Below are positions 190 through 40,363 of a stretch of 64,000 bases of DNA, piece after piece. The translations under genes and the position numbers were made by a program. The notes under the pieces were generated by a model. It was not told the DNA's origin and ran no database searches. It saw only the letters and a program-made list of their open reading frames with translations. The stretch is from Thelephora terrestris (lineage: Eukaryota > Basidiomycota > Agaricomycetes > Thelephorales > Thelephoraceae), in the NCBI GenBank assembly GCA_015956445.1, contig WIUZ02000007.1:1302001-1366000 (forward strand), given 5' to 3'. Positions within the stretch are counted from its first letter, which is position 1. Each line of letters opens with the position of its first letter.

Positions 190-917
190 CCAGGACGCTC
201 CGCGATATTGTTTCGCCTGACCTTGCCAGAACCCCTCCCGGAACAGTCATTCCTGTTCGGACGGCTCTCTTCTAATGTACTTTTCCTTATCACGGACGCT
301 TCTGACGGAATACCAGGGCAATTGCAGTAAACGTTTCCCATGGCCAAAAATCGGACCTGTGCTCTTGATCTGTTCGTTTTTTGTGCTTTGTTCGTGGAGA
401 AACTCCTTGAAGGCCGGGAACGCCCGGGTCACGGATACTGAGGTGTTCCGTACGTATAACAAGCCCTATAACATCGAAGAATAAATGTGAAAGTGAAAAC
501 AAAGCATCACATATAGCATCATGGCTGTACGTGGGCTGGAATCTTTACATGAATGGTTCCTCCAGAGGTTTATAAATGCATACTGACGTATCAGTAATCG
601 AGGATACAAACGAACGAAAATTAATGCTCGGAACATAGGGACCACTTTAAGAAGTTGTGGAATTCGAAGCCTCGCACCACAGCTCCGGTTGCCAGGAGGC
701 GTTGGAGACGTGGTGAAGCCTTACGAGGTACACACTTTCAAAGGGTACTTCGATCGGGCTCCCCTTTTGAACGCCGAGTCAGTTGAGGAGGCATTTTAGT
801 GACCTCGGTATTATCGTACCTCGAGATGTCGCTTGATGATCTTAGCGACGTCGTGTCCCAATTTTTGCCTCGTGATTGGGCCCCGATTTTTCTTGTGGTT
901 CATGGTCGGGATCTAAT
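190..917 (-). repeat. Left arm of an inverted segmental duplication (partner 21,030-21,775)
   Basis: The reverse complement of this stretch lines up base by base with 21,030-21,775. The match covers the last two exons of a TDA-family gene, its stop codon and about 450 bp of downstream DNA. The matching flank includes the string ACCCGGGCGTTCCCGGCCTT. Similarity stops at position 918, where the Plavaka element begins, and fades below about 190. Confidence 0.8.
647..917 (-). pseudogene. 3' exons of the kinase-TDA fusion gene, cut off by the Plavaka element
   Basis: On the minus strand the exon beginning at the acceptor near 915 reads IPTMNHKKNRGPITRQKLGH and continues to HLE before a GT donor. 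After an intron of about 56 bp the last exon reads GSPIEVPFESVYLVRLHHVS, then NASWQPELWCE, and ends at TAA (647-649). These are segments b and c of the TDA domain, nearly identical to the copy ending at 21,290. The matching 5' exons lie 6.4 kb away at 7,294-9,723 on the same strand, so this is the tail of one gene split inside an intron. Both exons are open. The break is the transposon insertion, so the gene could still work if the enlarged intron were spliced, though I think that unlikely. Confidence 0.75.
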
Positions 918-918
918 G
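916..918. repeat. Target-site duplication, left copy (ATG)
   Basis: ATG directly precedes the left terminal repeat, and the same ATG follows the right one at 7,294-7,296. The uninterrupted paralogue near 21,023 has a single CAT/ATG at the matching intron position. Confidence 0.7.
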
Positions 919-927
919 CAGTGTCAT
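919..927 (+). repeat. Left terminal inverted repeat of the Plavaka element
   Basis: CAGTGTCAT; the partner is 7,285-7,293 read on the minus strand as CAGTATCAT, 8 of 9 identical. Confidence 0.7.
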
Positions 928-944
928 CAGTAACAACGCATTGA

Positions 945-1035
945 ACTTATCTTGACTTTTTTTTGTTTCTCGACTTATTTGTACTTTATTTGTACTTTAT
1001 TCACAAGCGAGGAACCAGACTTATTTCGAACTTAT
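945..1035. repeat. Subterminal ACTTAT motif cluster, left end
   Basis: ACTTAT occurs at 945, 973, 1,019 and 1,030, together with a tandem pair of the 11-mer TTGTACTTTAT (979-1,000). The same motif lies near the other end at 7,135-7,140 and, inverted, at 7,187-7,192. Subterminal repeats of this kind are transposase-binding sites in CACTA elements; that role here is inference. Confidence 0.45.
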
Positions 1036-1077
1036 ATATTGTCGCATTGATGGAACGGGTAACGAGAAGGGGATACA

Positions 1078-4000
1078 TCAAAAGGCTATTTCGAACGCGT
1101 GATGATCAATGTGTTTGTTGACATAGAAGGAAGTGAAGAGGTCTAGAACGTTCATGTAATTAAGCTCCCGGTAGACAGGCACATCCGACAAGAACTTCGG
1201 GAGTAGGTGCGCCCCGCGAAAGATGGTGTCAACATGGATAACGCTCATGTGGCGTGCTCCACGACGGGTGGTCTCTGGCCGAGCAACCCAGAGGCCAGTG
1301 CTGTCGTCTGGTTCGTCGCTGGTGAGATACCACTGGACGAGGGCGCAAGGGTAGTTGATGTTGTTGTGCGAAAATCTAAAGAAAAGGTAAACCCGAGCAA
1401 CGAGGAGTGCTTTCATCCCAACAGCCTCGGAGTCACCCATGTCAACAAAGACACAGTCCCGACGTGGTCCGGGGATGTCGCCCCTGGTCCAGCGAGGTGT
1501 GGAGCGGATGACCTCACGGTACATTCCTCCGGGGCCAGACGGATTGCTCGGCGCACGAAATGTCGCTGTGGCGGAATGGTAGACAGACACCTTTGGCTCC
1601 CATAGCATTGGGCATGCTGCGAGGGCCAGTTGGTCGGGGTCAACTGTCGATGCGGGGTTGAGCTGGTAGAAGAGAAAACGGCGGGTGAGATCGAGGAGGT
1701 TGTGTTGACCTATCTTCAGACCGAGCGCGGTGAGTGATCTTGGATATTCCCGTGTTGACGCTGTGAACAATGGTGAGCTTTTGTGAGTTCAGACAGAAGG
1801 CTCTCAACTTACCTTTCCTGGCTACAAGCCGCACCTCGTTCATCAGAGGGCCTGATTCAACCGGTCCGCAGTCGTTGTCTTCGGCGTCGTCAGGAGGTGC
1901 TGCCAAGGGTTGCTGGGAGGTATCGTCGTCTAGGCCTGGAACGTGCTCATCGGTGTCACCGATTGACTCTTCGTTGGTGTTGTCGGGGGCGTCATCGAGG
2001 GCGTTGTCAAGTGCGTCGTTGAGGGTGTCATCAAGGGTGTCATTGAGGCTGTGCATGTACAGCGTGCCAGTATAGTGTAGATCGGGGATGGGGCTTTCGT
2101 CCTCGGAGCTTTCGCTCTCGGTTTCGTTGGCATCAGTGCTAGGGTCCTCATCCATGGGGCTTGCATTGGCAAGGGTGTCCTTGATGGCATGAGCGAGGCA
2201 CGAGTCTGCCAACATTCCACGGGCCGCGAAGTCAGCTTGCGCAGCAGCCAGCTTATCGAGCCTCTCATTAGTCTTGAGCATTTGCGAGAGAGCCATATGC
2301 TTGTTCGACCGACGCCATGGTCGCTTTACCGCAGTGATATGTTTGGATTCCGTGATAGACGAGCAGAGGCCATTCGGAGAACCGAAGTTCTCGATATGGT
2401 CAGCGTAGTGAACCATGGCGTGTTGTCGGGGGAGCGAGAATGCCGAAGGACCGCTTTCACGAACCGTCCCCGAAAAGACTTGGCGTGCCTCGTGAAACTC
2501 TTGTAATGCGGCTTTGAGTTGAGAGAGAGAATCATCAGAGATGACGTTGCGGCGCGCGATGTAACAGAACTCCAAAAATGCGGCGATCGTCTTGACAACC
2601 TGGGCAGGAACGAAGGCTTGGATCGCATTCATGTACACCTGTCGGATCTTGCATGTCAGACGTGACTCGGGAGTGAAACACTTATTTCAGGCACCTTCAT
2701 CAGAGCCTTTGAATCGTCGCCCGTCCACTGGCTGAAATTACGGCCTTGTTTGAACCTTCGGAGTCCGGGATAAGGGGGTGCGAGTGCAATCCTATGTTGT
2801 GGTGGTGAGGCTAAGAGGAGATGGTGATCAATGTAAAAAATACTGACCGCCGGTCAATCTCATCAATCGCACGTGCTCCACCCGCGATCCCGTGTAAGTG
2901 CTCGAGATACTTGCAAACCCAGTCCACCAGGTGGTCCTTGTATACCCCCTTGATGACTTGATGCAAAAGGTCAGGAGAGATGAGTTCATAAATGTCCGCC
3001 CTCGGAAAGTATGATGTGTATGGCTTGAATTCTTTAGCACCAGCACATTAGATGCTTCGAAATTACCTACCGTAGCACCAGGCGCAATGCCGTACACCTT
3101 CCGTAAGGTTTCATCATCATGCGATCCAACCAGAACATCGGTATGGGCTGCAGATCGGTGGCGACAGGGGGTGTCGAGAGAGTCCGGGTGACCGAAGCAT
3201 CTTGGACGAGACAAACGTAAGAGGACGTCCAAGATAAGGGAGCGGTGATAGACTCGACCTACGTTGGGCACCAGCCATAGATGAGCCAGGTGAGATAGAT
3301 CTGTTCCGGATAGTCAGATATGTGTGGTCCCAGGCCGTAAATTGCGCGGCGAAAGTATCCATCGGCACATAGTACGATATCGAAGGTCGTCATGAACGGC
3401 TTCAATGTGAGAAGGATAGTAGCTACCGATCTATGCATCAAGTCCCTTTTGAAGTTCCGGAACTCCTCGGTATTGGTATCTTTTCTCGCTCCTGTCGCGC
3501 GGAATTCAGCCACTATCGAGGGAGGGTAGAAATCAAGATTTAAAACAAACCTTTCGGTATTGGCAGGAATCCAAGTAAAACAAGCGCACCCCTGTGCGCA
3601 CGTCGGATGTGGTTTTGAATGTTTCCGATTGAAATGTATACCGGGTGGAAGTCGTTCTGGCCGGTAGCAACCGAGACAGTTGTTTTGTCGGACCCTAAGA
3701 TAACCGGGACAAACATGGAGCCGTGCGTTGAAGGGTCCCGAGCGATGGCATCCTAAATAACAAGATTTGTAAGCGGTTGACAAGGCGGCATGAGTGGTTG
3801 CGGACCGATTGACGCCATGCCCAATTTCCAGACATCAAATTGCAGTACTGTCGCTTATCTTCGCTGAATTCCTGGTACGCCATGTAGTCGATGTGGCCGT
3901 CGAAGTCCGCAGTGGCCAATATGTTCTTGATCACTTGGCGAGGGTCTCGAAACCATACCTCGTGCACCGTGGTCTTCCACTCTGGAGGCCGAGTTGTCCG

Positions 4001-4508
4001 AGGGACGGGGCCGTTGTACTTGAGCTGGGCGCTCTGCCACCGAACATCGCCAACCTCGATGGAATCAATCTGGTGGTGGAGGTCTCGGTGGTTGGCGAAG
4101 GGTGGAGTGTCGTTGTGGGGAACGAGTGTTGCGGCCCATAGCTCGAGAAGGTGATTGATTTTTCTCTGCGAAAGTTCGGCATCAGAAAACATGAATCCGG
4201 CAAGTTCGAAGCCAGCGCGGGACGAAAAAGGGGACCAATCGTTGTCGGTCTTGGCAGTTGGGACCTCTGGTGGGGTGTTTGGTGGAACAGGTGTTCCATA
4301 CCTGTTGCAGCGCCGTCCTGTGAAGAATAAGGAAAGCGTAATGAAAATAGAGACTATACGTACCATTCAGCATGGGGTGATAGTTCCTCCGTAGCTCGGT
4401 GACAGGGACGCTGAGTCCAGGGTCGTTTCGGTGGATGGAATTTTGATGTCGCCGCAGGCCGCTGAGAGTTTTGCAGATCTTGGCGCAATCGGGACACACG
4501 AGTGACAT
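1078..4508 (-). CDS. Plavaka transposase, multi-exon, apparently complete
   Basis: This is the transposase expected to cut and join the surrounding element. The start at 4,508 opens with a C2H2-like zinc finger (CPDCAKICKTLSGLRRHQNS, then IH). Family landmarks follow in order: NWAWRQ; SMFVPVILGSDKTTVSVATG; IYGLGPHISDYPEQIYLTWL, then GWCP; PRADIYELISPDLLHQVIKG; FSQWTGDDSKALMKVY; SSITESKHITAVKRPWRRSN; an acidic Asp-rich insert; a beta-rich tail ending DHHAFEIAF. I place eight GT-AG introns: 4,318-4,363; 3,753-3,805; about 39 bp near 3,535; 3,201-3,262; about 35 bp near 3,050; and three more near 2,800, 2,650 and 1,780. With these every junction keeps the frame, giving a protein of about 1,000 residues. 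The known family is large and basidiomycete-rich. I see no break. Confidence 0.88.
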
Positions 4509-4993
4509 CCCTGAAGAGGGGATGACGGGACTGAGAAGATGCTGGGGAGGTGGAGGGAGCTTCCAGAGCCAGGTTGTGAGTTATTGGCGTTGAACAGGAT
4601 GGGGAGGAGACACGTAGCGAGCTGAGCAGTGAGCGCCGGAAATCACCCGCGCGGCCTCAAATTCGCCCACGACTTGCCCACGACTCAACCTCGTGCCAGA
4701 AGACCTCACGCCCCATGGTCCACTTCCACTTCACCGAGTCTCCCTCGCTGCTTCAACGTTGCCGGATCTACGACCTCGCATGCCCAGACAACTCTGCACC
4801 TGCACACCTCATGCCCAAAGGCATTTTCCTCCAAAATCTGCACTCCATTGCAACAGCGACATCCGCCGAAATGGAGCACGCTGCGTTGCACCAGTTGGAT
4901 AAATACGGCTCAAGATTTCCCTCATTTCCCCAGCAACCTCTCATTCATAATATATTTATCACTCTCCCAATCTCAGCCACTCCCCCAGCATCC
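4509..4993. promoter_or_regulatory. Divergent promoter region inside the Plavaka element
   Basis: The 485 bp between the two start codons must hold both promoters. On the plus strand ATAAATAC (about 4,900) and TATAATATA-like sequence near 4,950 are the only TATA-like boxes, 45-95 bp before the accessory gene's ATG. A plus-strand open frame also runs through from an in-frame ATG at 4,715, so the accessory protein could start there instead. Confidence 0.5.
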
Positions 4994-6891
4994 ATGGTCA
5001 CTCGCACAAAGAACAAGTCTGCCCGCCCTGGGATCCCCGACATGACGCCATCACAGCTCGCTTCGGCTGGCCTTCTTCCCGCCCAAACCCCTCGTCGTCC
5101 ACCCAACAAGCCCAAGGCTGGCAAGAAGCTATCAATAAAGGACCAGCAAATCGCGGATTTGCAGGAGGAGCTTCGTGTTGCTCACGACACAATCGTAAGT
5201 TCGCCCCTTTCTATTGATCCATATCACGCTTAACTTACTTTCAACTATCTTCTAGGGTCATTCCCACGACGCAGAAGGCGACACTGACCCTGGAACCGAC
5301 GTTGACGAAGCCGTCGCCATTGGCACAAAGCGCAAGACCTCAGGATCTATTCGCTCAGCTCATAAGTAAGTTAGACCTTTTGTCATGCTTTGCCTTCGGG
5401 CTGATCACCCAGCACCAGATTAAAGCGATCACGAGCAATGGACCCTTTTGAGTCATCATCAATGGCACATCCTGGTGCCACGGGGCTCGCCGAAGACTGG
5501 CGAACGAGGATAGCATCACCGTTCCCACCGCTGTTCCCGCCGCCGTTCACACCGCCGTTCTCGTCATCGTTCACGTCATCGTTCGGCACTCCCTCCCCCA
5601 TGTCGTTCGATTTCTCGACCCTAGACTACAACGCGTTTCCACAGTCTTCCATCGGACCGATGTCGATGACCCCCATATCAACTGCGAGCAACTTGAGCGT
5701 AAGTCACATAAATTTCCAACTTCTACCGATGTACTGAAACCCCGTGATCTAGTTCGAGGGGACTCCAACCCTCACGTTTCTACTCCCGAGAACTGTCGGG
5801 AAAGATCGGGTTTACCCGGGGATCAAGGACCTCCCAGAGCACATCCGTGTGAACTTCCGTAACGAGTTCATTCGGTTTGTCTTCAAGTATATCGCAAATT
5901 CAACATCACCTTGGACCAATCCAGACGTCGAGGCACTTCAAGCCATATATCAGATTGTTTACCCTTTGTTCCCTGCAACGATTCGGCACAACGACGCCGT
6001 CTTCCACCCAGTAAGTTATTCTCCCACGTCTATGGCCACATGATCAAAACACTGACATAAATCAAAGACCCTCACGTCCCTCGGTGTCCTCCGCAACCGC
6101 CTGGCTGCCGCTGCAATCATTGCTGTCCAGGAGCACATGCCACTCGTCTTTCGACAGAAACGACTCAAAACGATCGAAACAAGGGCCGCATACATATCAA
6201 AGCTCTTCGAATCAGAGGATGATCACCCGATCATCTGGCGAGAGTATGTTGAAGGCGACATAAAAAACCATGCCGAGGTTGGCGGATACAAGACGGTATG
6301 TCACAAACATATTTCATTTAATCTCTCTGAACGTTGTCCGCAGGTGAGACGTGGCGTCTTCCAGTCCTACCCGATCCTTAAGACGCTTCTGAGCTACTAT
6401 TCCTCATCTGGGGTACTTGAGGCTCTCCCGACTGAAGATCCGGGGCCCGGAAACCGACCGCTGGGCGCCCTAGCCCTCGCGACCACCGCGGTATGTCACA
6501 TCACCAGCTCCCCTAGCAGCCGTTACTGATGCTGATTGTGAGCCAGGTCGACTTCGCGTACAGGATGTACGGTAGCGGTGACTTCATCAAATCTGCACAG
6601 TCGTTCAACGGAGATGATCTTGGCCCCAAGACCCTACAGTATATGGCGTACATCTCTAATGACCTCGGTGAGAGGCACTGGCAGTCGCTCTTCAATGCAC
6701 TTTCCACCTTCTCTCAGATTCTTTCTAAAGAGGAGGCCATAAAGAACCACACACCTGAAGAGCCTCGTGGACGTGTCCCACTCCCTCCCTCTGATCCTCC
6801 CTCCCCCCCCTACGATTGGACACCCCGCACCCGACAACAGGATCGTCAATCTTCTCCTCTCGCTTCACCTTTTGATTATCTCGAAGATTAG
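4994..6891 (+). CDS. Accessory gene of the Plavaka element, unknown function
   Basis: Seven exons join in frame to about 524 residues: 4,994-5,194; 5,256-5,365; 5,413-5,698; 5,753-6,010; 6,068-6,295; 6,344-6,490; 6,547-6,891. The N-terminus is basic (TRTKNKSARPG) with a short helical stretch (IADLQEELRVAHDTI) and an acidic-then-basic linker (DTDPGTD, IGTKRK). A compositionally odd Pro/Phe run (PFPPLFPPPFTPPFSSSFTS) follows. The C-terminal half is globular and helical, with STSPWTNPDVEALQAIYQIV and RRGVFQSYPILKTLLSYYSS, then a Pro-rich tail. I recall similar basidiomycete-only hypothetical proteins but cannot name a function. It lies inside the terminal repeats, head-to-head with the transposase, so a DNA-binding helper like TnpA of plant CACTA elements is a reasonable guess. 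An in-frame ATG at 4,715 is an alternative start. Confidence 0.78.
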
Positions 6892-7134
6892 CACTCTAGT
6901 TGTATGGCCGTTCCAATCTCTCACTAAATAGTCATCATTTGTCTCATGTCTCGTGTTACCGCTTTCTCGGGCCATCGGTCTCGGTCTTTGTTTACCCCCT
7001 CACCACTCTCGATCATTTTCCCTCACCTTCTCACTCACTCGTAATCACAATTACAGAACTCTCCTTCGCTTCGCCTACTCGTAGTCAGCTTTTTAATAAA
7101 AATGTTGCCCATCACTGTCGTTGCTTTAAATGCA

Positions 7135-7193
7135 ACTTATTTTTGAACTTTTCTCTCGCTTTTGAGGGCCGTCGCCCACGACTTTTATAAGTC
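7135..7193. repeat. Subterminal ACTTAT motif cluster, right end
   Basis: ACTTAT at 7,135-7,140 and its reverse complement ATAAGT at 7,187-7,192, mirroring the cluster near the left end. Confidence 0.35.
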
Positions 7194-7284
7194 AAGGACA
7201 TGGCTTCTAGAAGTTATCCCTTTTCCCATATTTTTCGCTTTTTCTAGAAAAAAGGCTGTTAAAGCGACAGAAAAGAAAATTTCC

Positions 7285-7296
7285 ATGATACTGATG
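7285..7296 (-). repeat. Right terminal inverted repeat plus right target-site duplication
   Basis: 7,285-7,293 is ATGATACTG, the inverted partner of the left end. 7,294-7,296 is ATG, the duplicated target. Confidence 0.7.
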
Positions 7297-9723
7297 GTTC
7301 AACACACAATCGGAATGCGGAGAACGTCAGAACAACAGCACCTGTCTTGCCTTTGCGAGACCAGATCGATTTCCCATGAACTGATATAAGGGAAGGACTG
7401 AGCACCAACGTGAGCCGATTCGACAGATGTATGTACCTCGATCCTCAATGACACAGAAGGCCCGACGCCCCCCTCCACGAACATTGTGTCGTCGCGGCCA
7501 TCTAGGTGACTGAAGAGCATATTCATGGCGTCGGTAAGCCTAATCCCCTCATTTCCTTGCACAATAAAATCGACGGGAGGGAGGCACCCCCAGCCTCTCA
7601 GTGTGGTTTTGCAATAGTACTTGGTTTGATACACCGCCTCAAAGTCGGGGCGTCCCAAAGGTTTGGAAGAGTCCGCCTAGAATCCCGTGGTCACCATTCA
7701 CAGACAAGCGACAGTATCTTTTGGGGTGCCTACCGGAATGTATTCCATGGTTATTGGATGCCGAAGCTTTTCCTCCCGGTTGCGTCTTTCTCTGCCTGCA
7801 GCGACCGACACGGTTCGTTGGTTCCCTTCTATTGCAGCTGGATGGGAAAGCGATCCCTCCCCTTCACCGACCTCATGAAGATGCGTGGATATCGCCCGAG
7901 CATGGTCGAAGTACACTTGGGGTTCCGTGACAGGTTCATCGACCCTGGATTGTGCTGGCGGTTGCTGTAGAATGCCCGGGCGAGGGAAGCCGTCGATACA
8001 GCCGGAGCCCTCATCCGTGCCTTCTTGAGTCGGACCACAGAATGCCTATCAACGTATTAGTCATTCCAGGAAAGATGCGCGGGTACACACGTACCTCTGA
8101 AGATGGACCCAGAGGAAAAGAAACTGGGTTTCGGGACTGGCCGAGACCCAATACTCCGGCCTCTATCTCTGGATCCCGGCCAGGAGGGGGGTAAGATGCG
8201 CCGATCGCTTGATCTTCCGATACGTCGACCAGAGTTCCCATGCTTGGGAGACATTGAGAATCTGGAATAGCTGGGGGATACTATAGGAGGATACGGTTGG
8301 TGTATCAGGAATGAATGAAAGGTGGACTCACGCTTATAGGAACGGGGCAACTCTCCTTCGCGAGGTCCATCCCAGGATAGGGTTGCACTGAAAAATTTGA
8401 ATTGGTTTTCAGACACCGCAAAACGTCTTCAACACCCGGACGCTCGTCCGCTCGAGTTTTCCAACATCGTTTCAACATCCCCCACAGATCATCTGCAAAC
8501 CCCACGCCGCGATGAGGATGTACACCTCTCAACACCTTCGCAATGGTCGCTGGTACCTTGTCTGTATGGAAAGGGCGGTTTCCACTGATAGTTTCGTATA
8601 TGACCATTCCGAGAGCATAACAGTCCGAAGACACCGTGGGGCGACTGGTCTCAAATCCATACTGCTCCGGATAGATGAGCTCCGGACTCATCCAACGGGT
8701 TGTACCACCCTGCGCCGGCGGACTTGAGTTCGCCATGTTTGATACAATCGTGAGGAGACCAAAGTCCGCCAGGAGGGCGTTGCCAGTTTGGTCGATCACT
8801 ATGTTAGCCTGCACGGATGACTAAGTAAGATAGGAAAACACCTCTCTACGTTGGTAACGTACCCCCTTTAAATCCCCGTGAATCATCCCCTGCTGATGAA
8901 TGTAGATCAATCCCTTGGCAACGCCTCCAAGCTAGCCATCCGAATGTCAACAAACTGAAAGTGAAGAGGGAGAGTAGGATTTCGAGAGAGACGCGCACCA
9001 GCTTGAGCCGGTTTATATCTGGGTTCGCTTTCACAAACTCGTTGATGTTGCCGTTATTCATCCATTCGGAGACCATGGCAAAACGACCTTTAGACGTGGT
9101 TACTCCTATCAGCGGCAGAACATGGGGGTGCTGGAGGGTCTTCCATATTACGACCTCTTTGCAGAACATCTACACAGGGAGCTGTCAGCACTCATACACG
9201 TGGAAGCAGAGCACGGTAAATCACTCGCAGCGAATAGCTTCTTTATGTCACTCTTTGAGCAGGTCCTTATGACCTTCACAGCAACATCCTTACCGCGATG
9301 TTTTCCCTTGTAAACGTCCGCATACCCACCTGAATATGTCGGGCTGCCGTTTCTGTAGTAGAAAATGGAAACCTCCAAAGATCTTGGAATAAGTTTGTGG
9401 TGGCCGCACGTTTTGTAGAGCTGTCTGAGACAACTCGCACGGGTCCTCAATGGGAGGTCGAACCGACCTAATGTCTGGCTCATCGATTGTGTTGATATAT
9501 ACTCCGCTGGTCACATTGGTGACAATGTAGAACGTACCTCATGTGCTGCATCGATAAATTCTTGCGCGTCGTCCTCGCTGAGGCAACGAATCTTGTCACT
9601 CAAATCGCTACGCTCGAAGATTGCCTCAATCAAGGGCGGGAGTTCATCAGGGGAAAAATCGGATTTGATGAAATGGCCTAAGGCTGGAAGACAAAATTCA
9701 GGAAGGAGTGATGAGTACCTCAT
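7294..9723 (-). pseudogene. 5' part of a TKL-like protein kinase fused to a TDA domain, split by the transposon
   Basis: From the ATG at 9,723 the minus strand reads a helical N-terminus (FIKSDFSPDELPPLIEAIFE), then a kinase domain: glycine loop YSGGYADVYKG, catalytic Lys in DVAVKVI, HPHVLPLIGV, catalytic loop IHGDLKGANIVID (HGD in place of HRD, as in many basidiomycete TKL-like kinases), DFG in LLADFGLLT, RWMSPELIYP and the C-lobe WKTRADERPGVEDVL. The next intron is phase 0 on both sides and joins VPIS to YPPAIPDS. It leads into a Pro-rich linker, a basic stretch (RERRNREEK) and TDA segment a (GNEGIRLTDAMN, then GPSVSLRIE). Homology stops in the following intron at 7,294, where the Plavaka element begins. 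Segments b and c are at 647-917. The lobe-joining intron seems to use a GC donor (GCGAGT), and the frame across one linker intron (near 8,000) is uncertain. Confidence 0.75.
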
Positions 9724-12703: not shown

Positions 12704-14325
12704 ATGAATATTCCCGGTGCACTGGAGATGTGGTTCGATGGTCTCTGTGCTGCAGATCTTGCACAGCTACTACGAGAAGAATATATTCGCAGCCTATACC
12801 TCACTGTATGCCTGCTCCTTTCTCGTGCAAGACACGCCGATGACACCTCTATTGCAGAACTTCATCCCCTCTCCTTCCCGCGCAGGAGATCCAGCAAACC
12901 CAAGTGAACAATTCGCCAATGCGCCAGCTTTGGCCAGCTTACCGCAATATCTGAACCAATTTCCCTCGTCGCATGTACGCCCGCCTTCACGTTCGGGCAG
13001 CTGATCAGCTAACAAACTCGTAGGTCTCTCTTATTACGCCGGCGGATTACTCCTACGGCACGCGGACAGCAGAACTCGGCTATCAAGGACCAGAAGTGGA
13101 TTTTCCCCTTCATCAGCATACCACACAACCTCTGCCAGTGTCATACCTCCACAACGAGATCCATCACCATGTTGCTGGTGGGATAACCGAAAACGACCCT
13201 CCCCCGTGCAGTGACCCGTATCGCGCTGAAGGGTATCCAGCAAGCTCGAGCGCGACACTGAACAGTGACCATGAGCCTATATCGCCAAAGATCCCTGGTT
13301 TGAACCGTGGATACCCACTGTTCGTGGAGTCCTTCCAGCCGTCGGATAACACGGCATGGGCTAGTCCTACAGTCGCCCGTGACGAGGGAGCTGGAGATCC
13401 TCCGGTTTTTAGTCCCCCTGGCAGGGTGGAAAACGGGGGAGCGATCAGGCTGCCCAAGGGGTCACCGCCCTCCGTAACACACAATGTCGCACCCTGTAAT
13501 CCAAAGAAAAGGAAGCGACAGGATTCCCAGGACGATCCACGCAAAGGCAAGCGCAGCCGATCGCAGCATCACGATCAACAAATCGGAAGATCAATTCAGG
13601 TGTGCATTTTCCAAACTCAGACCCAGCCAGGAAGTTCGACTCACAGCCCGGTCATTTGTAGTCAACCCCTTCGTCCCCGCCCAGACCCTCCGAGCTCCGT
13701 ATACTAGTGCGCCAGAAGAAGTACGAAGTCCCGAATAAACAGAAGTGGGACAAGCTCGACGACATCGTTTTCACGGTCAGAGGTAGGGACGGGATAGAAT
13801 TACCCCAGGCCATGGACACATATTTCAACGGTCCTGACGACCGCGACCTGCTCATGTTCACGAATGGAGAGGTTGGGAGCTCTATCTCATGCAGAATAAA
13901 TGTACGTGCTCTCTGTGACGGCGACGCCCGTGGTTACTAAAGCAGTTCAATCAGTTCGAGGATTACGAGACAAATGGAAAGGCAGAACAGGTATGTCTAC
14001 GGTGTTTTTCAGTATTCAAATCCCGTGGAATAAACATGACCACCAGATTCCAACCTCGAATTACAAGGAAGGGAAGGGCCGAATCACAAAGAAGCGGTTA
14101 GCGGAGTATACCGCAAAGCGTATTAAGGCTTATCTGGAGAAACTGGGAGTGAGTTGGTTGTGAAATTATATCGTCCTGTGCTAATTTGGCATCCAGCTTG
14201 CCGGGACCCCTTACCCTGTCCGCTTTGAAGACATGATCCTCACCAGACTTATCCATGTCTCGAAAGGATCCTTTCAACCGGAAATCTGGTACCAAATCAC
14301 GCCTCCGAGCTCTACCAATGCCTAA
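12704..14325 (+). CDS. TDA-family protein, copy 2 (unknown function)
   Basis: Exon 1 (12,704-12,805) encodes MNIPGALEMWFDGLCAADLA and 14 further residues. Later exons follow through GT-AG introns of about 45-67 bp, all in frame. The N-terminal 200 residues are Pro/Ser/His-rich and carry a bipartite basic cluster KKRKRQDSQDDPRKGKRSR, a likely nuclear localisation signal. The TDA domain follows: segment a GRDGIELPQAMD and GSSISCRIN; a short linking exon FNQFEDYETNGKAEQ; segment b RITKKRLAEYTAKRIK; segment c FEDMILTRLIHVSKGSFQPE, then IW, with TAA at 14,323-14,325. Intron positions match those of the other copies. I do not recognise the domain. The nuclear signal suggests a nuclear role, which is inference. 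Confidence 0.75.
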
Positions 14326-15057
14326 AGGCGTTTTTTGTGGCCCACGTGCTCGCCTGTGTATACCCGACCTATTTGAACATATGCTCATTTGGTTGTACTT
14401 CTTCCGTCTTCGCTTATGTCCCGCTGTTTAAATCCTGGCGACGCTAGAACTTACTGTTCCGCACGGCCACTCTGTAATTGGATGTTCCCATGTTCTCATC
14501 GGATGAAGATGGTTATTTGCTTTTCGGTTCTCGCAACTGCATGATACGTACTTAGAATTCCCCCAAAGGTCGATTTTTGTTTTCCCTCAAGCTGATTAAG
14601 GGCCAGTTCCTTGTACTAGCTTTCGCTCCCTTGACTGTGAGTCGCTACGACCCGTTCGAAAAACGATTCTTCTGACGGTCGTGGATATCACCCTTCGTCG
14701 GTGATCATGAGGACCGCATCGTAAAAGGCTAGTTGCTGCGATCTGCCGATCTCTCAAGGCCTTGTCCTCGGGGACATATGTTATTCGCCGCGTTCGGGCC
14801 CGAGTATATGGTAGGTGGGGCTGTGCCAGGGTAGGATCAGCGAGGAATGGATTAGGAAAAATTTGACGACAAATCGAAGAAAGGGGGAGGCAGTAAATCA
14901 ATTGCTTCAATTGCTAGGAACCAGGAAACAAAGCATTTATCACGAAAGATCTATCAGAGGGTAACATAGAATGGGGCGCATGCTGGTAAACGTTTACCCA
15001 AGTGCAAAATCAGATCAAATCAAATCAACCAAACAGGGCGGGAGAACTTCCGTGCTT
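14326..15057. other. Convergent 3' flanks of TDA copies 2 and 3
   Basis: No motif or exon chain is visible. This should hold the 3' untranslated regions of both neighbours. Confidence 0.5.
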
Positions 15058-17611
15058 CTAGGGTGAATTATGACCAGGAGTGCTGACCTCGTACCAGAGA
15101 TCTGGCTGCCAGGACGACTTCGAGACGTGGCGAAGCCTGGTCAAAACTGCGTTCTCGAACGTCGCACCTCCACAGCCAGTTTGAGCCTGCGCGGTTGGGC
15201 GTTGAACAACGCACACGAGGGCACAACTCCACGCTCACCTTGATACCTTCAATGTTGCGTTTCACGAGTTTCGCAACTTCAAATGCGAGCTTCCCCTTGG
15301 TGATGGACCCTCGAGCGTTCTTAGTATTGGTCGTCAGGATCTGGTGGTCGCATCCGTTAAAGCGTCCGCAAGCAAACGTCTCATATGCCTTACCCTCCAC
15401 TTCCCAACCTCGCGACCTGAGAACTGGCAGAGGCAGAAAGATATGGAGTCACATTTACGGGGTTTGTGGGAGTCGACGCACGTTTAACCTGCATAATATT
15501 GAGCTCCCAACATCTTCGAAGTCGAAGACCTTATCGTTATGGCCAGCAAAGCCAGTGTGCTCTGAATTTTCGGCATCGGTCAAATGGAGCCATCCGAAGT
15601 CAATGGGAGGTTGCCGAATCCAGCCATCTTGTCGAACGCCACTGGCGTATGGAGTTTGTGAAATCCTCTTGAATTGCCCTGAACCACGAGTGATGATAGG
15701 CATCACCGCGTCCTGTGGAAGTTTGCGTTCAGTCTCGACACCAGGATTCACGTTCAAAAACTCACTGGCGCTGCGCCCGGACTACTCCTGCGCACACGCT
15801 TCCTAGAGGGCACGTCGATTTCTACGTCGATGGTCTCTTCCGCTTTTCTAGACCCGCGAACTCCGACTGTGTGACGGGACGGTCTTGCAAGGCTTCCACC
15901 GTCTCCTGATCCCCTATGACTGGGCCTACGAATGTCCTGGCGCTTGATATGCTCGACCGGATCGGGCCTTCCTCCGCTCTCCCCTATCTGCGGAGGGGTG
16001 TAGCCTGTCATGATAAAAGGGCTCTGGAAATGTATCAGCATCTGCGGCTGGGGATGGAACGAAATGGAACGCCTGACTCACGGGTTCGAGGCCGTCACCA
16101 CGTGGCAAGAATGGCGCTAGTGCGCCACGTCTGGATCTAGTCCGGTACTGGTGCGGTCCACCGCCCGAACTCGAGGCGTAGTTGATGAGGAGAGCTGGTG
16201 CGCCGTGCGCCTGTGATGGATTTGTGGACCTCCCATTGGTGTCAATTTGAATTTGGCGCGCGTCCACGGTGCCACTCCAGTCGTGGTGAACCGCACAATC
16301 GAGTTGGAGGTTCGCGGGAGTTAGTCGCTCACGTCCGTGGCGCAGGTTCCCAGTCATGTTGCCGTACTTGTGACTCATGTCAATTGGAGGAGATGAATGT
16401 AAAATGAGGAGTCTCACGGTAGATTCCATCACCTCTGGGGGGTACATGACTCGGGAAATTCCTTCGCTAAGACCAGCTGCGTTTTGAGGTATTCTGGGGA
16501 TGGCGTTGTGGGGATCTTGGCGACCATTCCAGGGATTTTCCTGACCATGGATCCCTACCGCGGGATGGTGGGAATGATGATGAGTCACCGGGGGAGGAGG
16601 ACGGAGCGATGTAAATCCCTGACGAGAGCCACGTCAGCAAACGGAGAGATGGAGAATTAAACCCCTACAAAGTGACTCTCATATCCGCTCCCTTCAGGAA
16701 AACCGTGGTGGACGATCCAGTTATCTCCGCTCCCTATGAAATCATGACTTGACGGGTAGTTATTTGTTGGTTGGGCAGGAGCAAGCGCTTGGATACTGTG
16801 ATCGTCGAAAAGTCCAGCATTTCGAGTTGCAGGAGGGAGGAAGACACCGTCTCTGCCTCTTCGAGGGTCATTGGGGCCTGCGGTACCGCCGCGGGGAAAC
16901 TGTGCGCGGGACATCCTTCTTCAGCATGGAGTGGTAGCAGGAAAAGAGATGGATATTGAAAAAGGGGAATCCACATACGAATCTGTGTCAATTTGACCAT
17001 CCGACAACTAAACGTGTTGCCGAAAGGGTTGCACAGCCGGGGGGGAGGGACATCTTCGGCAGTTCTGACTCACTCGCAGTTGGCATCCAACGATTCGACG
17101 AGCGTGCGAGCGGCCAGAGGGGGCTGGACCTGACTGCGCGTGGGTAGTATTCCGAAACAGGAAGAAACAACGGAGGTCCGGTGGTGCGTGCGGGTGGAAA
17201 GAAGGGAGAATGAGAAGGAGGGTAAGTGTCCTTGAGTCCGGGCAAGGTCGCTGGTGTTGCCGAAAGCTGCAGTGCCAGATAACATGTGTGGAGTGGTTTC
17301 GGATGAGAGAAATTCTGGGGGCTGATCAAGCAGTGAGATGGTGTGGGTTGGGGTGGAGGCGGAATCAACCGGTATCCTTTCGAGCGAATGCGCAAGGGGG
17401 ATGTCGGTAGAGGGGCAAAGAGAATTTCTTTTGCTACGGGATGGTGCGCCAACGACATCGAAGCATTAGAGCGCTGTATGGGTTTTGAATTCAAGGAACA
17501 GGACGTGTTGATGAGCTGTCTTATCTCGATGGAATCTGGGAACGGCAAAGAACGAGCAAACGTGCTAGGGTTATCTGTGCCACGCATATAATCTGCCACC
17601 TCGTTGTGCAT
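15058..17611 (-). CDS. TDA-family protein, copy 3 (unknown function)
   Basis: The probable start is the ATG at 17,611 (MHNEVADYMRGTDNPSTFAR). A long, low-complexity Pro/Ser/His-rich N-terminal region spread over several exons ends in a basic cluster (SRKRVRR). Segment a then reads WLHLTDAENSEH and GSSILCRLN. A short exon VARLGSGG leads to segment b (SITKGKLAFEVAKLVKRNIE) and segment c (FENAVLTRLRHVSKSSWQPD, then LWYE), with TAG at 15,058-15,060. The C-terminal splice sites are clean and in the same places as in the other copies. The exon boundaries between 16,000 and 17,600 are less sure. It is convergent with copy 2. Confidence 0.7.
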
Positions 17612-19611: not shown

Positions 19612-21290
19612 ATGTCCGACCATCGTTCATACAATCCCCTTCAGGCAAGCTGCGAGGATACTGGTCTTGCGAATGGGATTTGGCCCTCCCCTACAATCGT
19701 GAGTTCGCCCTCCTCCCCCACCCACGATGCAAAAATCATACTCTTCTGCAGCCCTCACCAGCTTCCCAGCACATCTCAACCCCGGAAAACCTGCTCAACA
19801 TGTGGGAAGAACAAGCAGTCAATGTACATTATCCGGCGGGCGCTTATGACTCTCCTGGCCAGAACTTAGAGATAGAGGCGGAAGCACCGGATTTTGACCA
19901 GTTACAATATTCGTATCCTCTTCCTCCGGGTATATCCTCGCGGGTACGTGTGCACCCGCACATCTTCCGTGGAATGACCTATACGTCGATAGGCATCCGT
20001 GGGTTCGGCATATCCTCAAGAGGGCACGGACGCGGGCTCCGGCTGTATCGACAGGTTCCCCCACCCGCACATTACACAACATTTTTCAGCACAGTTCAGG
20101 TTCGGGGGACTCCCTATCAGTCGAATTCTTCTAGCACAGAATGGCTCTACGACGGACGGGCTCTCTCCTGAGGACCAGCATCCGCCCCAGGGGCCGGACT
20201 ACAACCCCAACGCTTACACTGATGGGGGGGTGCAATGGTCCCCAGATCCAGAACCAACGTACCAACCCCATCCTTCTATCACGCAACCCCAAGTACACTT
20301 CGACAATGCTTGGGAAACACCAACGCACCTTCGTGAGGGCGATGAAGGGGAGGGGTCGCTTTCCCATCCAGCTGGAATAGAAGGGAACCGATCAACGGCG
20401 CCGGTCCCTATGGATTCTTCGCAGGCGGAGGCAAATCACAGCAGAAACTGGAACCGAAGCAAATCGAAGCAGAAGGCGACCCCGTACGAGAGAGGAACGG
20501 GAGGCAAAAGGAGACGCAACCGGGTAAAAAAACCTAGGGACCCTGCAACCCTGGAATACATTCCGGTATGCACCCCGAAATGTAGTGTTGCTTGTCCGTA
20601 AATGGTGACCACGTCATTTCAGGCGGACCCTTCCAAACCTTTGGGCGGGCGCCCCGGTCTCCAAGCAGTGCTTCAAACCAAGTACTATTGTGAAAGCACA
20701 CAGAAAGGACGGGAGGGGCTTCTCTCTCCGATCGATTTTACCGTCATGAAAGGAAATGAGGGGATCAAGCTAACTGACGCCCTGAATATGAACTACAGTC
20801 ACCTAGATGGCCGCGACGACCCAATGTTCGTGGAGGTGGACGCCGGGCCCTCCGTGTCATTGAGGATCGAGGCACGTAAATCTATTGAATCGGCTCACGT
20901 TGGTGCTCAGTCCTTCCCTTATATCAGTTTATGAGACATCAATCAGGTATCGAAAAGGCAAGACAGGTGCTGTTTCTCTGACGTTTCTCCGCATTCCGAT
21001 CTTGTGTTAATCGCCACATTAGATCCCGACCATGAACCATAAGAAAAATCGGGACCATATCACGAGGCAGAAATTGGGACACGATGTCGCTAAGATCATC
21101 AAGGCCCATCTCGAGCCCGCTGAGGTACGATAACACCGAGGTCACTTGAATGCTCTTCGTCTGACTCGGCGTTCAGAAGGGGGATCTTTTCCACATTTCC
21201 TTTGACAATATGTATCTTGTAAGGCTTCACCACGTCTCCCACGCGTCCTACCAGCCGGAAGTGTGGTGCGAGACCCCCGCAGCTTCTTAA
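19612..21290 (+). CDS. TDA-family protein, copy 4 (paralogue of the split kinase fusion, without the kinase)
   Basis: Exon 1 (19,612-19,698) is MSDHRSYNPLQASCEDTGLA plus nine residues. Exon 2 starts at 19,752 (PSPASQHIST). The long third exon is Pro/Gln-rich with EGEGSLSHPAGIEGN and a basic cluster KRRRNRVKK. Segment a reads KGNEGIKLTDALN and LDGRDDPMFVEVDAGPSVSL. A 20-bp exon then joins RIEARIEKARQ in frame to segment b (IPTMNHKKNRDHITRQKLGH) and segment c (FDNMYLVRLHHVSHASYQPE, then VWCE), with TAA at 21,288-21,290. From exon 2 onward it matches the split gene at 7,294-8,240 plus 647-917, in the opposite orientation, but it has no kinase exons upstream. The acceptor of exon 3 is uncertain by a few bases. 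Confidence 0.75.
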
Positions 21291-21775
21291 AGTGGTCCCT
21301 AGGTTCCGAGCGTTTATTTTCCGAGTCGTGTATCCTCGTTCACTGCTGTGCCAACCCTTCTTTCGTACTTTATGCATTCATAGACGCCGGGGGCACTATT
21401 TATGTAAATATTTCAGCCCACGTACTACATACACCCATGGTACTTTATGTTATACTATGTTTTTCACCATACTCCGATCGTGTAGGGGCGTGTTGACTGG
21501 ATTTTACGTGCGGAACATGTGGCATCCTCAGAGTATCAGTGACCCGGGCGTTCCCGGCCTTCAAGAAGTTTCTCCCCGAACAAAAAACGAACAGATCAAG
21601 AGCACAGGTCCGATTTTTGGGAAACGTTTACTGCAATTGCTCTGATATTCCGTCAGAAGCGTCCGTGATAAGGAAAAGTACATTCGAAAGGAGCCGTACG
21701 AATAGGAATGACTGGACCGGGAGGGTTTCTGGCAAGGTTAGGGGAACAATTATCGTGGAACGTCCTGGGGCGATC
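21030..21775 (+). repeat. Right arm of the inverted segmental duplication (partner 190-917)
   Basis: Covers the last exons of TDA copy 4 and about 480 bp downstream, running into the last exon of the convergent copy 5. It matches the reverse complement of 190-917 along its whole length with scattered substitutions and small gaps. Confidence 0.8.
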
Positions 21776-23779
21776 GGGATGCTGGGACAGGAACTTCATA
21801 GCAGAACACCGGTTGCCATGAGGCCTTGGCTACGCGAACCAGCTCAACAAGCACCAAATTCTGGAAAGTTATATTCGCGCAGCCGGGTCCCTCCTGGCCA
21901 AGTGGACGTCGAAAAAGGGCGGAAGAAATCAAATGATGTTCTTACCTGAATCTCCTCGATGAAATTCCAAACAAACTCAGCCACCTTGAAGGCTAGCTTC
22001 TTCTTCGTGATGTACTTTGGCGGGCTCTTACTGTTCATCGTCGGGATCTAATAATCGCGTTCAGTGAGACGTCTTAGGATCGGACATTTGTGATACCTTA
22101 CCTTCGAGGTACCGATATCGCGGCCAGCGACCTGGGAAGAGAAGAGGGGGCTGAGAAACGCGTTTGGAGCACCTGAGAAACTCGACGGACCTTTAGTCGG
22201 CATGAAATCGAGCTTCCGACGCCGTTGTAATTGAAGACCTCGTCATCAGCACCCTGGAGACTAGCATATTTTCCGTTCGCCGCATCTGTTAACTTGATGT
22301 TCCAGAATTTGATAGGTGCGCATTTCTCCCAAGCTTCTTGGCTATGAGGGCACTGGTATAACGTTATTGGAACCGAGACCAGACGGGTGGGACCACAGAT
22401 ACCGACGGAATCTTCCAAGAGCTGTGATACTTGGTTTCATTCCAGATTACCGATCTCAGTTGGTAAACACACCTTCGCGACGAAAGCGTTGAATTTTTTA
22501 CGACTCTTTCTGGGCTTAAGTTCACCGCTGAGGGTTTTCTCGGCATGGCTTGCGGTTTTCCTCGGTTCCCCGGAATTTCCGGAACGTCGAACACCTGTGG
22601 GTTGGCTGGATGGAGTCCTAGAGGAACGAGAGCCTGGCAGCACAGCCTCAAGGCGCACTTCATTTCCTACTCTCTCGTCACCGAAGCTGTGAGGGTGTGG
22701 GGGCGCAGGGTAGTAGGGTAAATCAATCTCCCCGTCGCTTTGTCGAAAAGATGCTGGAGGGCCAGGTGACTGGATTTGTTGATGGTTGGGTCTTGCGCCC
22801 GAATAGGGTTTGTAGCGGCCTCCCCTCTCCCCCCCGTGAGGCCACGCAAATATCGAGGCAGTGTGATCCACCGTCAAATAGAAAGCCTGGAATCCAGCTA
22901 AGGGCGATGGGTTTGGTAAAGATTGCTGCGCTCACCGGTCTGTCGTTGCGCACGTTCAACGAGGACGGAACCAGCCTAATTGGTCCGTTCGTCGTTTGGA
23001 ATTGACCCTGGCTTCTACCCCCTCCCGAAGCAAAGGCGCGGTTGTTGGAGCTGGACGCCGCGTCCTATGTATGTACGAAGCTAGTGAGTTTCTGTCAGAT
23101 GACAGCCGAGAGCTTGGCGTACACCTGCCCATCCACTTGGGCTCCTGTCCAGTGGAAAGGAAGGGTCTAGGCTTCTGAATGTTGAACCTTCGAGGTTGCT
23201 CCGCTGGTATTCGAATACGTGAGTGTTCTGGACGTATCAGCTAACTAGATGGGTGTGACGTTATGGAGCTCCTCACAGAGTTTCCTTCTGCCTCTTGCGG
23301 CGGTATGACGCAAGGGGGACCTTGAGGAGGGCCAGCGACAGCGTACGGCCTCAGAGTAAAACTATTGAACGGGGCATGTTGGTAGCCCAGCCCTTCTCCT
23401 TGGTTTTGAACTTCGGTCAGAAGGTAGTGCGGGTGAGGAACTGCTGGTGGGGATGAAAAGGACGGCGGAGGCTCCTGGGGTACGATGATGCGTCAATAGC
23501 TGCCGGCAACGGCTGGGTGGATAGACTCACTAGCGGCGTCACTTCGTCCCTCCTGGTGGAGTACACATACAGGCTCCTAGCAGCAGAAGAGGGAGAGAAT
23601 CTTGGGGTGTCACTCGACGCCGGACGATGAAGTGCTGGTAATCGAGGGCCCATTCCGTCCGCACCGAGCGAGGACGCGACGTGATCAGTGGAAATGGCGT
23701 CTCCTCCTGGTTGGTTGTGTGAGGCATAAAAGTTGCTCTGAAAAGGTTGGCCGCGGTCCATGGGAGTGTAACGGTCCAT
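21750..23779 (-). CDS. TDA-family protein, copy 5 (unknown function)
   Basis: The chosen ATG at 23,779 gives MDRYTPMDRGQPFQSNFYAS. A Pro/Ser-rich N-terminal region spans several exons, including EPPPSFSSPPAVPHPHYLLT and YYPAPPHPHSFGDE, and ends in the basic cluster KPRKSRKKFNAF. Segment a is NIKLTDAANGKYASLQGADD and GSSISCRLK, segment b YITKKKLAFKVAEFVWNFIE, segment c FQNLVLVELVRVAKASWQPV, then FCYE. TAA is at 21,750-21,752. Introns after SCRLK and after the segment b helix match the other copies. Exons between 22,880 and 23,400 are tentative. It is convergent with copy 4, with 459 bp between the stop codons. Confidence 0.7.
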
Positions 23780-26700: not shown

Positions 26701-27564
26701 TGGCCCGGCAGTGCGTCTGGCACCGGCATCATGCCTCGTGCCAGGGTGCCGAAATACCAACTCCCACTATCAATCACAGCGCCGCCACTTTTCATAATAT
26801 TAGGCCTTTGCCTTTTGATGATACTATGCTCGACATCCTGGCGTCCAATGCCATGCGTGGGCCCCCTCTGTCCCCCGCGAAACTCCCCTCCATCATCGGT
26901 CCCCACCCGTAAAAACACCTGGCGTTGTCCACGGGTCCTTGAAGTCCCATCGAAGCTAAAACATTGGGTGGACTGCTAGTGATCTCGCGGCCTACTGGAG
27001 GCCGATGTACGAGCTGGCAGGTACCAGGGTGCCGGACCCCTATGCCATCAAAAGGTGGACAAATACTTGGGGCTCATATGTAGAACGGTTTATCAGAGTG
27101 ACACACGCTGTCATCAAAATATAAAAGCGTGGAAACATGTAGTCGCATTGAAACGCAAACATTAGAACGTATGTCTGTTTTGGTTGGACACTTTCTTCCG
27201 CTGTTCCCGATTTCTCGTTCGGCACACCCGCATCTGCCGACTCATACATTTACTCCACTTAAGCACGTCGAGCACCCATGTACAATCGCTCGACTTATGA
27301 GCACAGCGAGTTTGATGCAATTAGGGTACGGCAGCTTTTAATGACCAATGATGCCGAAATTAGCTTGCCTCAACTGAGGTCAAACCTTGTGCAGGCGAGG
27401 AGCGAGCGAGACGTGCGTCGCTGGCTCCGGACCCCAAAACGCCCGTCCTATGCAGGGGCCATCAATCGAATAAAGCCCTGCTGATCAGTCGTGAGTACTC
27501 AAATAAGAGGGCCAAAATGACCATTTCATTGAAGATATATGTAGATATGTGGGTATATGAACTG
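23780..27564. other. Gene-poor region with decayed fragments
   Basis: No complete gene recognised in 3.8 kb. On the plus strand at 24,376-24,465 lies the second copy of the YRLLEV repeat found at 1-110. On the minus strand around 24,880-25,330 a 149-residue frame has a basic cluster (SPSSKRRKP) and a C-terminal ISRAS that faintly recalls TDA segment c, but the LTDA motif is missing. At 26,870-27,060 is a repeat shared with 44,890-45,050. A 68-residue plus-strand frame (27,278-27,484) is unrecognised. Confidence 0.4.
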
Positions 27565-29590
27565 CTACGAATGATCTGCAGGTTGTTGTTCATACCAAAT
27601 CTCTGGTATCCATGAAGCCCTCGAGACGTGAACAAGCTTGATCAATACCATGTCCTCCCACCGCATGCCGACCTATCGCGAAGTATCAGCTGGGGAAGCC
27701 TCCGACCGCACGTTCGACGGACCTTGAATTCTTCGACATAGCACTTAACACGTTTGGCGACCTCAAACGCCAACCTTTTCCTAGTTCTGGGGTTACGATC
27801 CTTCTTGTGGTCAGTCGTAGTGATCTGTTCCAGGTCCCGTCAATCTATTGAGCAGAAATTAACGAGTAACACCTCCTACCTGGTACAATCGAGAAGAATA
27901 TTGCGGAAACTGATCAATCAGAGAGTTGAGTAAGGGGAGCCAGAACTTTCCGTAAGACTTGCGTACATGTATTCGACACGAGACCGAGCTCCCAGCGCCA
28001 GGGTACTGGAACATCTTGTCATCTCTTTGATCAGGACCCGAGAAGTGCGGATCGAGGGCATCCGTAAGTCTGATTCCAGGTTGTCCACCTACGAAAAACT
28101 CGACGGTGTCTTGCCGAACCCAACCGCGCTGAGAATTTCCACACTTGTAGTGCGGTTGTTCGATTTTTGTTCGGTGATGGGTAGGGGGTTCTGGTGCGGG
28201 CTGGACACGACTAGATGATCAACATCAGAATCAGAAACTCTCTCATGGACCCACCTGAGTTGGTGCGAAGTCGTCGGGTTGTGCATTTTTCCTCGCACGC
28301 GGGCGGCTTCTGGTCGTATTACCAACATCTTCGAAACCTCTTTTCCTCTTCCCCTTCCCAGGGTATGACACAGCCCCAGGCGGCTCGCCCTATCGGATAG
28401 ATGAATGCCTGTCAATCCTAAATGGTAATCGTGTAAATCATGGGCAGGGCTCACAGAAGCTGTGACTCGAGATCTTGATGGCCCAGCGACAGATGCCAAC
28501 GAGGTGTTATGTGATCCGTATTGATGCCCTAGTTCTGGGTGTCGAGAAGGCAAAAATTGGGTCCGAAATGGGGGCCCAGCGGCCTCATTGCCATGTGATA
28601 CCCCCCCATATTGATGCGGAAAGGAAGAGGTTCTACTGGGATCTTCGTTTTGCGTTCCGACTGGGGAATGTTGCACCGGTTCGAAAGGATACGTTGCTTT
28701 TATCGAAGCATCATCCCGCTGGCGGCGAGTATCATAGGGCAAAACTGATTCTGCGTTCGGATCTTCACCCGCGCCACGGAAAGGATGCGGAACAGGCATT
28801 GGGGGCGGTGTTGGAGTTTCGCGATCGTAGTGGCGGACTCTCCCGTTGTCGCTGTACACTGGTGAGAAGCCCTTGTGATCGTGGAGGGTAAGCTCAGTTG
28901 GAGTTGGTGCCTATACAAGATGGGTGGTGAGCTTTGGTGTTTAAAAAAGTGAAATAACGAACATTGAAGGCAAGCGTATCACCCTGGGACGGTGGGAGGG
29001 GGGTCCGGCTACCCCAGTCCAGTTGTTGGGCATCTGATGGCCCTCCCTGCGGAGGGTACAGATCCTGTGAATGTCAGCCTGGTATGAAATGGGGAGGGTG
29101 TCGTACGCCTTACCGGATTCGAGTCCCTAACGTAAAACGCTTCACGAGGAGGAATGAAAGGTATCCGTATAGAAGCGTGTGGGAGCTCCTCCAAAGTCAA
29201 CACTTCGGGTAGATCGCGAGGATCATGGGTTGACTGGCCCTGATCATAGGACGGACCGAAGGAATCATAGTGCGTGGATCTCTGCAAATCATCTTCAAAG
29301 ATTGATCTACACAAACATGAGGAGAAAAGTTGACCCACAGTTGACTCCGTAATCACATGCTCCCGTCCCGACGAAGGGCCTGGCTCCGATCCGTCTGCGT
29401 ACATGGAAAAAGCGTATCCAAGTTGTTGGAGTCTTGATGTGGATGATATAGGGAACTCTTCTGAGGCTAAATCTCCACCCGCAGTATCTTCGTTGTGGCC
29501 GGCAGAATTCAGGTTACATCCGGGACCGCTCTCTGTGGCGTCTTGTGGCTCTCCGCGGAGAGCGTCACGAGGGGGGATATTGTTGATCAT
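27565..29590 (-). CDS. TDA-family protein, copy 6 (unknown function)
   Basis: Start at 29,590 (MINNIPPRDALRGEPQDATE). The first exon runs to a donor near 29,110. Phase-0 introns then join RDSNP to DLYPPQGGPSDAQ and later AFN to APTPTELTLHDHKGFSPVYS. The middle is Pro/His/Ser-rich with a weak basic stretch (RGRGKEVSK). Segment a reads PGIRLTDALDPHFSGPDQRD and GSSVSCRIH, segment b PRTRKRLAFEVAKRVKCYVE, segment c RWEDMVLIKLVHVSRASWIP, then EIWYE, ending at TAG (27,565-27,567). C-terminal splice sites are canonical and match the family. Some N-terminal introns may be misplaced. Confidence 0.72.
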
Positions 29591-40200: not shown

Positions 40201-40363
40201 TGCTGAGCGGATGAAAGGTGGGAGGGCTGTGACTTGTGCCGAGTTTGACGCGACCCATCCGACCAAAGGTTCTTTCGGATGATGCCGAAATTTCTCGATT
40301 CAATTGATCAGAGCAAGTCAGATAAACCCTCTGGGTGACCGCCACCTCACATTCTGACTCACA

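Follow-up and report, generated by a model that had tools for sequence, protein, structure and literature searches.

The nearest catalogued domain to the gene family described here is DUF6741 of Pfam (PF20526; IPR046629, which we take to be its InterPro number), and unannotated proteins of a similar kind are common in mushroom genomes. In the 40.6 Mb genome of Thelephora terrestris (60 contigs), searching all six frames with the DUF6741 model revealed two loci above the Pfam cut-off, C9:824k and C1:2135k. Loci are labelled by contig and kb, C1:2135 thus denoting contig C1 and not the gene copy C1. The best piece of the C9 gene scored 62.2 bits, against a cut-off of 27. The C9 protein possesses an Arg/Ser-rich stretch ahead of the domain and ends soon after its (S/T)WQP strand, and the domain is interrupted by two introns, after MRIV and after HFVQ, both of phase 0. 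The window, which is the whole analysed stretch of 64,000 nucleotides (C58:1302001-1366000), harbours six gene copies, C1 to C6, with a common C-terminal domain, named the TDA family in a preliminary description of this DNA. This domain very probably belongs to a divergent, expanded DUF6741-like branch.

The copies are C1, which is split by a transposon (exons 1-2 at 7342-7625 and exons 3-4 at 647-912, minus), C2 (13719-14325, plus), C3 (15058-15655, minus), C4 (20677-21290, plus), C5 (21750-22364, minus), and C6 (27565-28152, minus). According to the predicted models, they share a colinear C-terminal domain of about 130 residues, encoded by four exons with phase 0 joins. Exon 1 ends with S(I/V)(S/L)(C/L)R(I/L)x, exon 2 is a mini-exon of 30-39 nucleotides (nt), and exon 3 carries a TR/TK..L...(V/T)A helix. 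The length of exon 3 is 93 nt in C1; in C2-C6 it is 102 nt. Exon 4 contains an (H/R)V(S/A).(A/G/S)S(W/Y/F).P strand and reaches a stop shortly after. All domain introns of C1-C6 are GT-AG, with the sole exception of one GC donor in C4. The models of C2, C3, C5, and C6 were obtained with an automatic chain builder; for C1, where the builder returned no chain, and for C4, where its chain was wrong, the models were hand-assembled from anchors. Phase 0 joins are a requirement of the builder, which also imposes the multiple-of-three exon gaps, and the latter are therefore not usable as evidence. The features are as follows:

7437-7625, minus: C1 domain exon 1, TKYY..SLRIE, hand-assembled
7342-7380, minus: C1 domain exon 2, 39 nt, hand-assembled
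820-912, minus: C1 domain exon 3, ITRQKLGHDVAK, hand-assembled
647-763, minus: C1 domain exon 4 to stop, HVSNASWQPELWCE, hand-assembled
13719-13901, plus: C2 domain exon 1, chain builder
13955-13990, plus: C2 domain exon 2, chain builder
14047-14148, plus: C2 domain exon 3, chain builder
14197-14325, plus: C2 domain exon 4 to stop, chain builder
15482-15655, minus: C3 domain exon 1, Y type, chain builder
15394-15423, minus: C3 domain exon 2, chain builder
15239-15340, minus: C3 domain exon 3, chain builder
15058-15186, minus: C3 domain exon 4 to stop, chain builder
20677-20871, plus: C4 domain exon 1, followed by the GC donor, hand-assembled
20928-20966, plus: C4 domain exon 2, hand-assembled
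21023-21124, plus: C4 domain exon 3, hand-assembled
21177-21290, plus: C4 domain exon 4 to stop, hand-assembled
22191-22364, minus: C5 domain exon 1, Y type, chain builder
22102-22131, minus: C5 domain exon 2, chain builder
21946-22047, minus: C5 domain exon 3, chain builder
21750-21893, minus: C5 domain exon 4 to stop, chain builder
27967-28152, minus: C6 domain exon 1, chain builder
27880-27909, minus: C6 domain exon 2, chain builder
27723-27824, minus: C6 domain exon 3, chain builder
27565-27672, minus: C6 domain exon 4 to stop, chain builder
28153-29590, minus: C6 N-terminal region, two open frames, 22% Pro+Ser, approximate (end taken from the preliminary description)

A stop considered in exon 2 of C4 was rejected, as the frame FMRHQSGIEKARQ is open.

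Since trying out many splice combinations exposes the builder to overfitting, chains were scored by leave-one-out profiles, which exclude the scored copy, its near duplicates and the chain at C16:271, and were rebuilt on shuffled downstream DNA (a segment swap that keeps dinucleotides, 25 shuffles per copy). Exons 2-4 were rebuilt in five out of five tested copies, and in each of them the observed score was reached by none of the 25 shuffles. The leave-one-out scores were 169.9 bits for C6 (highest shuffled score 83.4), 153.4 for C2 (65.0), 124.7 for C3 (37.1), 123.9 for C5 (59.0), and 202.4 for C23:1000 (87.0). Exon 1 by itself gave 34-81 bits in these copies, compared with 124-202 bits for the spliced chains. 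A family with a shared C-terminal domain is thus confirmed for the six copies, in agreement with the preliminary description, which had proposed paralogs with diverged N-termini. Its three sequence blocks sit at the positions given there and their consensus is a fair average, and the shared intron sites were placed correctly; no copy of the six contains an exact match to the third block as written (HVSxASWQPExWYE).

Comparison of profiles related this domain to DUF6741. With hhalign, a 14-sequence family profile aligned end to end with the spliced C9 protein at 96.7% (score 60.7 over 113 columns; E 3.9e-10, as the value for one comparison), whereas 200 shuffles of the C9 protein scored at most 20.4. 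The DUF6741 protein of C1:2135, spliced by eye, gave a score of 37.2, against at most 22.9 for 200 shuffles. A profile of only four window sequences (with a shorter C5 exon 4) still matched the C9 protein at 86.7% (E 4.4e-6). Blocks of the C9 protein colinear with those of the family are G-V-x-L-T-E-A-L, x-R-I, W-x-G-Y-P, I-S-x-x-x-L..VA, and V-T-S-G-T-W-Q-P, and in both proteins the domain lies at the C-terminus. Gene structure, compared with the C9 gene only, also corresponds. The first C9 intron is identical to family intron 1 in alignment column and phase. The second shares the phase of family intron 3; its column equals the exon 3 end of the 93-nt copies (C1) and falls three residues before that of the 102-nt copies. 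The C1:2135 gene, read by eye, has a probable intron immediately ahead of WEGYP, at the site of intron 1, and its frame reads through there. Compared with the C9 gene, the window family carries one more intron, located between the mini-exon and the IxT..ITR exon, and it is strongly multiplied. Its single copies match the Pfam model weakly, and we therefore describe the branch as divergent.

Several observations weigh against this assignment. A Pfam scan of single copies gave C2 18.1 bits (E 0.0031, for an early version with a shorter exon 4) and C6 14.8 bits, both under the cut-off. DUF6741 was detected at E<=1 in just 4 out of 14 members, leaving ten without a match; the best of these matches (E 2.9e-4) probably also lies under 27 bits, judging by comparison with the scores of C2 and C6. 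The six-frame DUF6741 search returned none of the window copies (three candidates scored) and also gave a sub-cut-off match in one of 14 control genomes. Moreover, the two DUF6741 rows stand on very long branches in the family tree, and the exon joins of C1-C6 are predictions. These scores are what would be expected if the domain were a genuinely new family with a convergent or spurious likeness to DUF6741. Against such an origin, which we regard as improbable, stand the hhalign score, about three times the shuffled maximum, the end-to-end colinearity with the C9 protein, and the correspondence of the phase 0 introns. Furthermore, no family besides DUF6741 matched more than one of the 14 scanned members. 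Common ancestry of the window family with DUF6741 is therefore well supported by the profiles and intron sites, with scores that stay below the Pfam cut-off for strict membership. The preliminary description knew no named family with this pattern, a statement that no longer holds; the family profile gave a strong match to a true DUF6741 protein, and single copies stayed under the Pfam cut-off.

Searches of 5.39 million papers retrieved none containing any of five variants of the HVSxxSWQP motif, 'DUF6741', 'PF20526', or 'IPR046629'. A search on kinases and family expansion likewise listed, as far as the excerpts of its matches extend, none about a TDA/DUF6741-like family. The window copies attach an expanded family to a catalogued domain, and their alignment, exon models, and intron frame could serve to widen the Pfam DUF6741 model.

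The family extends far beyond the six members first proposed. With C6 as query, the genome search (E<=10) revealed 81 pieces, which fall into 48 places when those on one strand of a contig are grouped at 900 bp (piece counts are lower bounds). C1 is counted twice among them, because it is split by the insertion. Twenty-five out of the 48 places have at least two pieces, and 36 have at least two pieces or E<=0.01; lone weak pieces may be chance matches. Twenty-four exon-1 matches were found in the examined loci, and 13 of them gave chains above 120 bits and 125 residues. One of the 13, at C16:271, was dropped as unconvincing and is absent from the second profile and the tree. Five further chains with the identical four-exon frame came from loci L065-L068; the third-ranked chain of L066 and the second-ranked chain of L068 were taken in one step, and the tree took the best chains. 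The chain set leaves out C56:62, C1:3626, and a 9-bit match at C58:1334. In viral contigs the C6 query, which reaches close relatives only, had no match.

The family tree comprises 25 rows, 24 of them different, with the C58:1370 fragment present twice under two names. C3, C5, and their duplicates form one group (100/99), and C4, C1, and relatives another (100/98); C2 and C6 have no firm placement. The surroundings of C2/C3 and C4/C5 recur on contigs C16 and C58, with longest matches 81-90% identical. The ratio of non-synonymous to synonymous substitution rates (dN/dS) was calculated for 20 pairs. Fifteen pairs lie at 0.33-0.96, and three (C6/C2, C6/C4, and C3/C5) are saturated and uninformative. 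The near-identical C3 pair has 0.67 and the young pair C16:560 / C58:1371 has 3.8. Positive selection was rejected for the young pair (1.5 synonymous, 19.5 non-synonymous, Fisher p 0.19). Its exons (19/429) and introns (8/164) are equally diverged, and it is thus read as close to neutral. Kept frames and intron sites had been taken as an argument for selection. Given these ratios and the young pair, that argument was overstated: constraint is weak.

C1 shows one way in which copies may be lost:

925-7296, minus: Plavaka DNA transposon, 6372 bp, inserted into C1 intron 2, Pfam matches to Plavaka at 1.2e-28 and 1.9e-19

This element of the Plavaka kind (PF18759) is an insertion inside C1 and does not belong to the family proper. 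It has the inverted ends CATCAGTA/TACTGATG and a 2-bp AC duplication, read by eye, and the insertion site is uninterrupted in five paralogs. Plus-strand frames (4580-6891) lie in the other half of the element; the one frame scanned there had no match in Pfam. Most copies might be functionless, decaying duplicates that persist as passengers of segmental duplication in a region with transposons. The equal divergence of exons and introns in the young pair fits this, as do the insertion in C1, the GC donor of C4, a TAA in exon 1 of the C58:1370 copy, and the loci C16:603 and C56:1696, where exon 1 is kept and the builder gave no credible downstream chain. Nonetheless, general decay appears rather unlikely, considering that the domain is fully open with canonical splice sites in C2, C3, C5, and C6, and that, among the 17 pairs that yielded a dN/dS value, 6 lie at 0.33-0.49, including C5 and its C16 relative (0.33). 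The copies probably constitute a large paralogous family of fast turnover, with a diverged N-terminus and a remote, expanded DUF6741 domain. New copies would arise by segmental duplication and disappear through decay and transposon insertion. Having many recent copies, the family is suited to testing turnover and pairing. Its link to DUF6741 does not by itself reveal a function.

Neighbouring family members at less than 4 kb form nine pairs, six convergent, three tandem, and none divergent. Copies of the Y type (C3, C5, C16:269, C16:562, and C58:1370) were found in tail-to-tail pairs in five out of five cases, each at a distance of about 1 kb from its partner, another member of the family; the typing covers the 22 family members in the tree, and about half of the 48 places lie outside it. 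Such an arrangement would be expected if a Y gene and its partner were a co-inherited two-gene module that was copied jointly to several places. Their products might then form an obligate pair, as a heterodimer or as an activity and its counterpart, and copies would therefore be kept and moved together. Two types of segment account for five of the six convergent pairs, and the sixth, C23:2220/2223, consists of sister copies in the tree. Independent pairing events are therefore few. The module is regarded as very unlikely. Duplicated segments that hold a tail-to-tail pair of two family types are located at 13719-15655 and 20677-22364 of the window, and at C16:269-271k, C16:561-563k, and C58:1370-1372k.

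The N-terminal frames contain from 15% (C1) to 25% (C2) Pro+Ser. Their basic clusters had been taken to suggest nuclear proteins, and were compared with 1000 composition shuffles per N-terminal part, counting those that reach the observed maximum. The clusters are clear in C1 (3/1000) and C4 (1/1000) and marginal in C5 (59/1000), but do not stand out in C2 (148/1000), where a PKKRKR string is present, C3 (585/1000), and C6 (888 and 942/1000). A nuclear location is hence suggested by some copies and is, for the proteins as a whole, a tentative proposal with the odds somewhat against it. The domain itself could possibly be a protein-protein interaction module, although we consider this doubtful. 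It would be a small alpha/beta module, perhaps with the order strand-strand-helix-strand-strand, and the variable N-terminus, with a basic stretch in some copies, would set location or partner. This order was read from the sequence pattern and also appears in an AlphaFold model of the unspliced contiguous frame of the C1:2135 DUF6741 gene, which is not trustworthy because of its predicted local distance difference test (pLDDT) value of 37.8. The low pLDDT of this one model, and a sequence search of the PDB that gave nothing convincing (best E 0.85 for one copy and 0.15 for the profile), also count against the interaction module.

A protein kinase gene is present upstream of C1:

8305-9318, minus: pieces of a protein kinase gene, PF07714 and DNA match, upstream of C1

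PF07714 was detected at 8308-8820 (9e-15) and 8849-9169 (2.9e-8), and the DNA matches that of a kinase on contig C12 over 8570-9318. Kinases of this type are found upstream and on the same strand at three family copies of the genome, C1, C58:1284, and C12:1108. At the last locus (C12:1106936-1108840, L018), the family domain follows the kinase frame by about 0.4 kb on the same strand, and the two could be joined by a phase 0 GT-AG intron, so that a shared protein is a candidate reading of the adjacent frames. In that case the domain would act in signalling, as a module that some members carry in fusion with a kinase. This seems unlikely, since two of the three kinase neighbours are duplicates of one segment, the kinase at C23:1143 lies downstream on the opposite strand, and C2-C6 have no adjoining kinase among the matches listed. 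PF07714-type kinases are also abundant (869 first-look candidates), and some kinase neighbours are therefore to be expected. Genome-wide, kinases like the neighbour of C1 gave at least 180 matches at E<=1e-10, with 150 of the 869 candidates scored.

In its gene content, short introns, and Plavaka element, the window has the appearance of basidiomycete DNA. Other parts of the window contain further features. Several related units occur at 47700-59670, with longest DNA matches 74-83% identical, and three minus-strand frames scanned there had no Pfam family at E<=0.01. A likely Tel1/ATM-like gene lies beside the family cluster at 33401-40299, where large open frames on the minus strand contain a TAN motif and an M-HEAT region of the ATR type.

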